Shown here in pieces: positions 28,989 to 31,252 of a stretch of DNA of 55,208 nucleotides. The notes beneath the pieces are model-generated. The model had not been told where the DNA came from, made no database searches, and was given only the letters and a program-made list of their open reading frames with translations. The position numbers and the translations under genes were made by a program. Positions within the stretch are counted from its first letter, which is position 1; every line of letters begins with the position of its first letter. Origin of the DNA: Gloeobacterales cyanobacterium ES-bin-313 (GTDB taxonomy: Bacteria; Cyanobacteriota; Cyanobacteriia; Gloeobacterales; Gloeobacteraceae); NCBI GenBank assembly GCA_014379585.1, contig JACMLN010000046.1, forward strand, positions 1-55,208, in the 5' to 3' direction.

Positions 28989-29372
28989 TCAACTGTGTGG
29001 ACAGATAAATTCAATCGGCAAACCATCGGAATCGGCAACAAATGCGACTTCGTAGGTCTGATTGCCAATCTCTTGGTGGCGAGGTTCGAGCAAGATTGTC
29101 ACCCCAGAAGAACGCAATTTTTCCACCGTAGCAGTCACATTCTCGACTTGTAAACTGGTGTGGTAGTAGCCCGTATATTGTTCATCTAACCATGCATCAG
29201 GAGCGGGTTTAGGCTGGGGAATTTCGATCAGTTCGATGCGGCCTAAGGGGCCAATCAACCAGCAGGCGAGGGTCATCCCTGTGGTAAATCGTTCTTCGAT
29301 CTCAAAATCAAGGAGTCGATAAAAATCGATAGCCCGAAAAATATTGGAGGTGCGAATCGAGACGTGGTGCAC
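28989..29372 (-). CDS. VOC/glyoxalase-fold metalloprotein
   Basis: A 127-residue protein of the vicinal-oxygen-chelate superfamily. The four metal-ligand positions of glyoxalase I seem present: an N-terminal His (H2/H3), Glu in RIELIEI, His in YYHTSLQV, and Glu in LPIEFICP. That suggests a lactoylglutathione-lyase-like activity, but other VOC chemistry is possible. The GTG start directly abuts the TAA of the upstream gene, so the two are co-translated. Confidence 0.8.
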   Translation of the reverse strand: MHHVSIRTSNIFRAIDFYRLLDFEIEERFTTGMTLACWLIGPLGRIELIEIPQPKPAPDAWLDEQYTGYYHTSLQVENVTATVEKLRSSGVTILLEPRHQEIGNQTYEVAFVADSDGLPIEFICPHS

Positions 29373-29681
29373 TTAAGGAGCCTCACAAAAGCGAGCAAGA
29401 AGTAAGTCGGCAACAGCATTGGCAATCACAAACTCACTCAGCGCTGTACATCCGAAATCAAAATGGCGCAGCTCCGCGAGTAGCGCAATATGGATAGCCA
29501 CAACCAGATTTTCCCCCTCCAAGCGCTGCCTGGCATAGACCTGGGTGGTACGTGCAGCCACTTTTGCGTGGATTGGTTCTGCCAAAAATTCTTTGTCCAA
29601 CCAACCGAGCAATGCTTGCTCTAGCCAGCGGCATTCACTGGCAATATCGCCCACAGGGGGTAGTGCAACATCCTGAATCAT
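29373..29681 (-). CDS. Conserved cyanobacterial hypothetical protein
   Basis: A 102-residue, acidic, helical soluble protein beginning MIQDVALPPVGDIASECRW, with WLEQALLGWLDKEFL and TQVYARQRLEGENL. I believe similar short proteins occur widely in cyanobacteria, but no function is known to me. It lies directly upstream of the VOC gene with no gap (TAA-GTG). No membrane segment is seen. Confidence 0.7.
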   Translation of the reverse strand: MIQDVALPPVGDIASECRWLEQALLGWLDKEFLAEPIHAKVAARTTQVYARQRLEGENLVVAIHIALLAELRHFDFGCTALSEFVIANAVADLLLARFCEAP

Positions 29682-29791: not shown

Positions 29792-30082
29792 ATGGCTGAC
29801 GAGACTTCTCGTTCTGCTTGGTTTGGTGGTGAAACCGCTGAACTTCAGCTAGCACAGTATTTTCAGCGGATGGAGACTTGGCATGCAGCAATTGCCGACG
29901 GTGTAATTGCTCCCGAAGAAATCCGCGAACAGGGCAACCGTGTCATTGGCTTGCTCAAGGAAGTGGAACCGCTTATAGATACCGAACAACATGCGACTTT
30001 GACGAAGATCCTCTACGAAATGGCAGTCCTCCAAGCAATGCAAGGGACTGCGATGGCAAGTACTTTGGGAGCAAAATCATGA
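29792..30082 (+). CDS. Small helical protein, stand-alone copy of a shared domain
   Basis: A 96-residue protein of unknown family. Core motif is YFQRMETWHAAIADGVIAP followed by EEI and a second helix pair (TLTKILYEMAVLQAMQG). About half of 80 positions match the C-terminal part of the gene at 30533-31252 by hand alignment. GGAGAG five bases before the ATG supports the start. It overlaps the next gene by four bases (ATGA), indicating coupled translation. No membrane helix is seen. Confidence 0.78.
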   Translation: MADETSRSAWFGGETAELQLAQYFQRMETWHAAIADGVIAPEEIREQGNRVIGLLKEVEPLIDTEQHATLTKILYEMAVLQAMQGTAMASTLGAKS

Positions 30083-30528
30083 AAGTGAAAGCATTTCAAA
30101 TTCCTGACGCATCTCCACAATTTTTAGCGACAGCCATCGAGTCCTGGTTCCGTACTGAAGGTTTTGAATCTCAAAGTTTTGCAGGCCCAGATGGTACCTA
30201 TATTATTCAAGGGCGCAAGGATAACTTGCTGCGCTTTGTGGTTGGGCTGTCTGCATCTTTGGTCGTCACAGTCGGCACCCAACCTGATGGAGGTTTGACC
30301 GTTACCATCGGTGCGGGTAGCTGGCTCGATAAATATTTAGCTGGCATCAGCGGCATCTTCCTGTTTGCGCCTTTAGCCTTCTCCGCCGCCTACGGGGTTT
30401 GGCGGCAGGACAACCTTGAGGACAAACTTTGGGAACATATTCAAAGTCGCCTCGCCGGAGCCAAAGAGGTTCCTGTGGTCATTCCCGCACCACCCTTCCA
30501 GCCCGTTAGTCTGACTTCCCAGGAGTAA
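30079..30528 (+). CDS. Membrane-associated protein, stand-alone copy of a second shared domain
   Basis: A 149-residue protein of unknown family. A soluble N-terminal part (ESWFRTEGFESQSF, YIIQGRKDNLLRFVVG) leads into a beta-rich hydrophobic stretch and TIGAGSWLDKYLAG. One membrane helix follows (ISGIFLFAPLAFSAAYGVW), then a helical tail and a Pro-rich end. The same domain, roughly one third identical by eye, forms the N-terminal part of the next gene. It is coupled to the preceding gene and four bases from the following one. Confidence 0.78.
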   Translation: MKVKAFQIPDASPQFLATAIESWFRTEGFESQSFAGPDGTYIIQGRKDNLLRFVVGLSASLVVTVGTQPDGGLTVTIGAGSWLDKYLAGISGIFLFAPLAFSAAYGVWRQDNLEDKLWEHIQSRLAGAKEVPVVIPAPPFQPVSLTSQE

Positions 30529-30532
30529 AATT

Positions 30533-31252
30533 ATGCAGACCCGCACCTACAATGCACCCGGTTTGAGTGCAGATGAATTGGCCGAGAAAACTCGTCAATG
30601 GTTTGCCGGCAAAGGCTACGAAACCCAAATATTCCGCAACGCCAATCATCGCTTGCTCGTCCAAGGCTACCGAGAGGATCTGTGGCGCTCGGCTATTGGA
30701 GTGGGTACGGCCATCACCGTGCAAATCTTTAGCCCTAGCAGCGATAACTTGCAAGTCGATGTCGGCGCTGGTGCCTGGGGGGACAAGTTCTTCACAGCGG
30801 GCATTGGCCTCTTATTTTTCTATCCTTTGGTGCTTTCTGCGGCTTGGGGAAGCTTTGAACAGTACAAACTCGACCAGGATGTCTGGAAAGCAATTGAAGC
30901 CGCACTTCCGACTGCGAGTACGACCATCGAGACTGCTCTACCGACTGAAGTAATGAGCACGTCTGATTTGCCGACGACTTGGTTTAACGAGGAGAGTACC
31001 GAAGTCTACTCCACCCAATTTTTCCAACGCATGGAAACTTGGCAACGCGCCATGGCCGATGGTGTCATCGAACCAGCTGAGATCCAAGCACAGTCTGAAC
31101 TTGTGACAGGAATTCTGCGCACCCTTGAGCCGACCCTCAGTGACGAAGCCCACGCCAAACTCTCCGAAGTGTTCAACGAAGTGGCTGTACTCCAGGGGAT
31201 GCAATCCTATGCCCTCTACCAGCACATCGACGAAACCAAGCCTGCTACTTAG
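30533..31252 (+). CDS. Fusion of the two preceding domain types
   Basis: A 239-residue protein. Residues about 1-125 resemble the gene at 30079-30528 (QWFAGKGYETQIF, LLVQGYREDLWRSAIG, VGAGAWGDKFFTAG, helix GLLFFYPLVLSAAWG). After a Thr/Ser linker, residues about 150-230 resemble the gene at 29792-30082 (FFQRMETWQRAMADGVIEP, EVAVLQGMQ). The domain order is reversed relative to the order of the separate genes. One membrane helix is predicted, with the C-terminal helical domain on the same chain. Function is unknown. It ends the three-gene operon. Confidence 0.8.
   Translation: MQTRTYNAPGLSADELAEKTRQWFAGKGYETQIFRNANHRLLVQGYREDLWRSAIGVGTAITVQIFSPSSDNLQVDVGAGAWGDKFFTAGIGLLFFYPLVLSAAWGSFEQYKLDQDVWKAIEAALPTASTTIETALPTEVMSTSDLPTTWFNEESTEVYSTQFFQRMETWQRAMADGVIEPAEIQAQSELVTGILRTLEPTLSDEAHAKLSEVFNEVAVLQGMQSYALYQHIDETKPAT

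Follow-up and report, generated by a model that had tools for sequence, protein, structure and literature searches.

Three adjoining small genes on a stretch of contig from the Gloeobacterales cyanobacterium ES-bin-313 (55,208 nt, referred to below as the window) are composed of only two domains, which occur both as separate proteins and joined in one polypeptide. This arrangement raises the question of what the two domains are, and whether their occurrence in fused and separate form points to a common membrane-associated complex, as had been proposed in a preliminary description on the basis of the Rosetta-stone argument, or can be explained by the history of the genes.

The three-gene unit and its distribution

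All three genes are located on the forward strand, in the order A, B, fusion. Gene 1 (29792..30082, from the ATG at 29792 to the stop codon ending at 30082) is an ORF for a protein of 96 aa that consists of domain A alone. Gene 2 (30079..30528), delimited by its ORF, the family alignment and profile matches, encodes domain B alone (149 aa); its ATG at 30079 lies in the tetranucleotide ATGA, by which it overlaps gene 1, and its stop codon ends at 30528. Gene 3 (30533..31252), delimited by its ORF, the family alignment and a structure model, starts with an ATG four bases past the stop codon of gene 2, ends at 31252 and encodes a protein of 239 aa, in which domain B (residues ~1-125) is followed by domain A (residues ~146-230), the opposite of the sequence of genes 1 and 2. 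When gene 3 served as the query in a six-frame search of its own genome, gene 1 matched residues 141-229 (45% identity, E 1.8e-20) and gene 2 matched residues 1-144 (28% identity, E 5e-20), and these E-values exclude chance as the source of the paralogy of both halves of gene 3. The same search revealed a fourth match, to a lone A domain on another contig (E 2.5e-13). The preliminary description, according to which gene 3 joins a gene-2-like and a gene-1-like domain in reversed order, about half of 80 positions are alike between gene 1 and the end of gene 3, and the genes are separated by an ATGA overlap and a gap of four bases, agrees in all these respects with the coordinates and the alignments. 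Scans for promoters (3 sites versus 1.8, sd 1.3, in shuffled sequences) and for terminators (1 versus 2.6 in shuffled sequences) gave no signal.

The view that both domains are unnamed has also been borne out, as the models of Pfam, NCBIfam, PHROGs and PADLOC yielded nothing usable for the three window proteins, and a sequence-profile search of the PDB returned only noise. We found neither a description of this operon nor any paper that combines Gloeobacter and SHOCT in the open-access literature, which does not imply their absence from print. A and B are treated here as real, conserved and unnamed families, of which B is linked to SHOCT proteins.

The distribution of the unit was studied by searching with gene 3 in 59 genomes, nine of them from Gloeobacterales (own genome included). 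Matches were found in all nine, with E-values of 4.1e-20 or better; outside the order there were just five, with E-values of 0.009-0.07, which were taken as noise. The A-B-fusion triple is intact in eight of the nine genomes, while in the ninth (G002) its pieces are found at contig ends. In most of the compared loci neighbouring genes overlap or lie between a few and roughly a dozen bases apart, and outside Gloeobacteraceae the flanking genes vary while the triple stays. Conservation of the neighbourhood in related genomes, which had been suggested as a check on the proposed complex, has therefore been found across Gloeobacterales, with respect to both co-occurrence and gene order. In G002, one contig end carries gene 1 together with the beginning of gene 2, and a different contig end carries the tail of the fusion (L040:4360-4759 and L044:3844-4008); the frame of its gene 1 runs off the contig without reaching a stop codon, in contrast to the relatives, and a frameshift or an assembly error is possible.

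Copies of the domains also occur beyond the triple. Most genomes of the order have two B domains, the exceptions being G007 and G008 with three each and G002 with a single fragment. A domains number three per genome, except in G006, which has two, and in G007 and G008, which have four each; in G002 one of the three is a fragment. G008 and G007 possess a second pair comprising gene 1 and the fusion, but not gene 2 (L041:8012-9591 and L042:7402-9081), followed by a gene for a GNAT acetyltransferase. A lone A-domain gene (G000:C126:28784-29020, L045:8761-9027; also in L043 and L046-L049) is present in all six genomes of Gloeobacteraceae, the family of the window genome, and in none of the other three genomes of the order. 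In L045 and L046, the two loci in which this neighbour was identified, the lone gene encodes 87-88 aa and both adjoins and overlaps coaBC (DFP, of the pantothenate pathway); an equally long ORF lies at this place in L049. A scan of contigs with the fusion alignment employed two narrow patterns (four loci).

The genes are clearly under purifying selection. In comparisons of G001 with G003, G005 and G004, dN/dS amounts to 0.09-0.13 for gene 1, 0.04-0.10 for gene 2 and 0.17-0.25 for gene 3; these values come from three pairs within Gloeobacteraceae, dS being saturated in a further pair that includes the window genome. The low ratios bear on a reading in which the unit would be a toxin-antitoxin or phage-defence module made of a small soluble partner and a membrane protein. 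Small overlapping genes, one of them with a membrane-type segment, are what such a module would look like; however, the three window proteins gave no match in PADLOC or PHROGs, and presence in every genome of the order that was searched together with low dN/dS is unlike mobile defence cargo, so that we regard this reading as extremely improbable.

Domain A and its likeness to SHOCT

Domain A is predicted to comprise three helices (residues 20-35, 41-61 and 64-94 of gene 1; pLDDT 77), in agreement with its preliminary description as a small helical domain. An alignment of 24 A domains, in which the initial TTG or GTG codon is shown as M in some rows with no effect on the invariant positions, reveals W10, F11, W30, A33, D36, G37, E43, Q47, E76, V79, L80 and M83 to be identical in all members.

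The first two helices and the loop between them resemble the SHOCT hairpin, a pair of amphipathic helices connected by a loop, in their arrangement and in a conserved Gly and Glu (G37 and E43). The similarity is centred on a helix-(A)DGxIxxxE-helix motif, found in gene 1 at residues 27-46 (29870..29929, + strand) by profile alignment with permutation controls. Comparison of the A profile with a profile of SHOCT repeats (19 of 24 repeats, extracted by a pattern and freed of near-duplicates) gave hhalign scores of 20.6-20.7 with probabilities of 34-39%, and placed the stretch SWQxAiADGvItpeEi of A on the SHOCT hairpin. No column permutation out of 300 reached this score (best 15.8), nor did any of 500 permutations that preserve hydrophobicity classes (best 16.9), although such controls retain some but not all features of helical proteins; the reversed A profile scored 8.2. 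All three subfamilies align in the same register, with scores of 25.6 for the coaBC-linked copies, 18.0 for gene 1 and 16.2 for the fusion, the last being the weakest and lower than the top score among the permutations of the full profile; it is this fusion-only profile that places the motif of the C-terminal A domain of gene 3 at residues 167-186 (31031..31090, + strand). A test with single sequences was weak: one member scored 12.9 bits and the next 2.2, while shuffled sequences (589 of 960 scored) reach 6.2.

Searches with the Pfam models likewise count against SHOCT, as related matches stayed at sub-threshold level. The SHOCT model (PF09851) has no match at E ≤ 1 in the three window proteins, and it does not appear among the top 25 of the 29 families with hits to the 24 A domains at E ≤ 1, a ranking by the number of members hit in which a family with just one such member might be missed. 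The closest to SHOCT is DUF1707 (PF08044), a SHOCT-like family, which was found in five of the 24 A domains at sub-threshold level (best E 0.011). A shares with SHOCT and DUF1707 the helix-loop-helix with Gly and Glu at equal spacing, the C-terminal place in gene 3 and the membrane context. However, at ~85 aa it is about three times longer than SHOCT (~30 residues) owing to the long third helix (64-94), which carries the invariant E76, V79, L80 and M83; it has no match over the Pfam cut-off, it makes up gene 1 by itself, and it exhibits an invariant WF and a near-invariant SWQ motif that the SHOCT repeats examined lack. We conclude from these profile comparisons that the first hairpin of A resembles SHOCT above the level of the permutation controls, and that A is best regarded as a putative SHOCT-like domain, and not as a SHOCT domain. 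True Pfam SHOCT domains are encoded elsewhere in eight of the nine genomes of the order.

Two other identities of A were considered and are not preferred here. In the EF-hand register, acidic ligands occupy positions 1 and 3 of the loop; the AIADG-type loops of A do not have them, and the EF-hand_5 model matches just two of the 24 A domains (best E 0.13). TerB has no support from the family, as it is not among the best 25 of the 29 Pfam families, and a single protein that looks like TerB on reading its sequence matched the A profile at E 0.004. This protein is one of the matches to the A profile that were set aside in five other genomes of the 292 from the phylum (E ≤ 0.01), the remaining ones being three short matches in one genus, one of which was read, and a long coiled protein. 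Foldseek returned one match to the A domain (E 8.2) and none on a second look, which does not prove a new fold.

Domain B, its fold and its relatives in other cyanobacteria

The fold of domain B is taken from an AlphaFold2 model of gene 3 (alignment of 42 rows), whose N-terminal part is homologous to gene 2. The predicted arrangement is β-α-β-β-β-β followed by a C-terminal helix (strand 2-7, helix 13-26, strands 30-35, 41-46, 59-69 and 72-81, helix 99-124), with pLDDT of 85-97 in the blocks 1-50 and 61-80, below 50 at residues 85-102, and with low-confidence stretches between the domains. A hydrophobic segment lies at residues ~86-104 of both gene 2 (30334..30390, + strand) and gene 3 (30788..30844, + strand), where in the latter it coincides with the low model confidence at 85-102. 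Its proline (P98 of gene 2) is invariant in all 14 aligned B domains of the order. The preliminary description of gene 2 as a one-helix membrane domain hence stands as regards a hydrophobic segment of membrane type, but not as regards a single helix, since B is predicted to be an α/β domain.

Among known structures, the best neighbours of the B model are KA1 domains and AMPK adenylate sensors, and for the KA1 domain of Chk1 a Z-score of 8.5 and an rmsd of 2.9 were obtained, with 91 residues aligned to a chain of 92. These matches suggest a candidate function, in which B would be a lipid-reading domain of the KA1/TBP type and A would relay the lipid or ligand signal to a soluble partner; fragments that contain KA1 have been described to bind acidic phospholipids (PMC4686854). 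However, Z-scores of 7-8.5 are common to many unrelated folds, including the N-terminal domain of spermine synthase, METTL16 and cyclases, the Foldseek E-value for B is no better than 4e-3, and a sequence link to KA1 was not found in the PDB profile search (best E 1.2). The KA1-like match may thus be at the level of common arrangements, B may be called KA1-like at best, and a role as a lipid or ligand sensor is rather improbable. The predicted fold of B may resemble that of the KA1 domains of MARK, Chk1 and SAD kinases and of other TBP/helix-grip-like folds; unlike the proteins with KA1 domains, B has no kinase and no sequence similarity to them, and it has the hydrophobic segment inserted before the last helix. 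If the KA1-like reading is right, the hydrophobic stretch follows the last strand of a domain and precedes the C-terminal helix of the same domain, a position for which a re-entrant anchor would be no less likely than a simple transmembrane helix.

Sequence profiles revealed relatives of B outside the order. The A and B profiles were run within the phylum, on samples of 292 or 386 genomes that are not exhaustive. Among 292 genomes, a B profile built from the order only matched proteins in G200 (E 2.9e-16) and G194 (E 8.9e-8), and the profile extended by these two matched 13 of 386 genomes, the own genome included, with G200 and G194 being matched by construction. All 12 proteins outside the own genome show the same architecture, in which B is followed by SHOCT-like repeats, and in the two of them that were scanned, Pfam SHOCT was detected with E-values of 1.6e-22 and 3.3e-17. 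These B-SHOCT proteins (L050, L051, L062-L073) have ~270-340 aa and consist of an N-terminal α/β domain, a hydrophobic segment and SHOCT-like repeats. A weak match of ~40 residues in G155 was dropped, because it falls in an unrelated protein that looks like a sugar kinase on reading its sequence; G155 has a true B-SHOCT gene elsewhere in the genome. The plasmid records contain no match to B. No family of neighbours is common to more than three of the 12 B-SHOCT loci, and the genomic context thus suggests no client.

The B-SHOCT proteins (L050/L062, L051/L063 and L064-L073) share with the operon the homologous N-terminal B, mostly with a hydrophobic segment, and C-terminal domains made of helix hairpins. 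They differ in being single genes with SHOCT-like repeats that have no conserved partner gene adjoining, whereas in the operon the place of the repeats is taken by a single, longer A domain of three helices, and separate genes for A and for B are present as well. SHOCT repeats are absent from the C-termini of the operon proteins, as gene 2 stops after B and gene 3 has A. As B is homologous to the N-termini of the B-SHOCT proteins and the hairpin of A is SHOCT-like, the operon is most readily understood as a split-and-fused relative of the B-SHOCT membrane proteins that is specific to the order. Neither the B relatives with SHOCT repeats nor the SHOCT-like hairpin of A had been noticed in the preliminary description.

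History of the unit and its possible role

In phylogenetic trees, in which most inner branches are without support, two clades are found among the A domains, one made up of those from the fusion (97/100) and one of the coaBC-linked copies (100/100), while the copies of gene 1 are not resolved as one clade. In the tree of B, gene 2 forms a clade (95/90), the B-SHOCT proteins are set off from the rest (100/100), and the grouping of the fusion copies has weak support (46/84). As the fusion A domains and gene 2 form clades, the duplication and fusion predate the radiation of the sampled order.

This history weakens the Rosetta-stone argument, because the fused and separate copies are paralogues that coexist in one operon. 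Of the proposed complex, the two unnamed domains, the membrane-type segment and the co-occurrence of the genes have been retained, whereas this logic is weak. The pattern also fits plain duplication and fusion, in which gene 3 would be made of copied and joined A and B domains and the three proteins would function separately, e.g. as homo-oligomers in different conditions. The early split and the A-fusion pair that does without gene 2 in G007 and G008 agree with such a history. On the other hand, the tight coupling and the order of the genes are kept over genera and families in spite of changed flanks, which favours co-assembly or a fixed stoichiometry, and we consider separate function of the three proteins unlikely, though a stronger contender than the sensor.

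The explanation that we favour, with about an even chance, is that the operon encodes an order-specific, membrane-associated scaffold related to the proteins in which B is combined with SHOCT repeats. The idea is suggested by the parallel between B followed by SHOCT repeats elsewhere and B followed by the SHOCT-like A here, together with the presence of free A and free B. B would be a small α/β domain held at the cytoplasmic membrane by its hydrophobic segment, which presumably inserts, and A a SHOCT-like three-helix adaptor. Gene 2 would then provide an extra anchor, gene 1 an extra adaptor, and gene 3 both in one chain; with like domains expected to pair, B with B and A with A, the fusion would bridge the membrane-bound product of gene 2 to that of gene 1 and set the number of A domains shown at the membrane, and the A domains displayed in this way would bring in a client or arrange it. 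Placing proteins at the membrane and assembling complexes has been proposed as a role of SHOCT-like domains (PMC11237479); against a scaffold counts the finding, described within PMC3581485, that an isolated SHOCT domain did not multimerise the protein that carried it in the test. As biology, a membrane adaptor is of an ordinary kind, and it is the split-and-fused form that is unusual.

The taxonomic distribution gives the putative scaffold a particular context. Gloeobacterales are the earliest-branching cyanobacteria, have no thylakoids and photosynthesise in the cytoplasmic membrane, as stated in PMC13326532. The triple is present in every examined member of the order (in one of them in pieces), and A domains were not found together with B in the other cyanobacteria sampled. 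A family kept in all sampled Gloeobacterales, in a split-and-fused form not found elsewhere, is a candidate for membrane organisation. At its boldest, it would be a lineage-defining scaffold, a heteromeric B/A lattice that helps to organise patches for photosynthesis or respiration in the cytoplasmic membrane and is derived from an ancestral B-SHOCT protein that was split and fused again, an extension that we consider a long shot. Independently of its role, the operon defines two unnamed domains and links one of them, B, to SHOCT proteins, and its separate, fused and SHOCT-replaced versions constitute a natural comparison for the role of SHOCT-type hairpins.

A minor observation concerns the upstream flank of the operon, which does not point to a client either. 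In the window, a gene of the glyoxalase family and a gene for a protein of 102 aa with no Pfam family (28989-29681, reverse strand) are divergent from gene 1; the same pair adjoins the operon in four other loci only, all of them from Gloeobacteraceae (L034, L035, L036 and L039).
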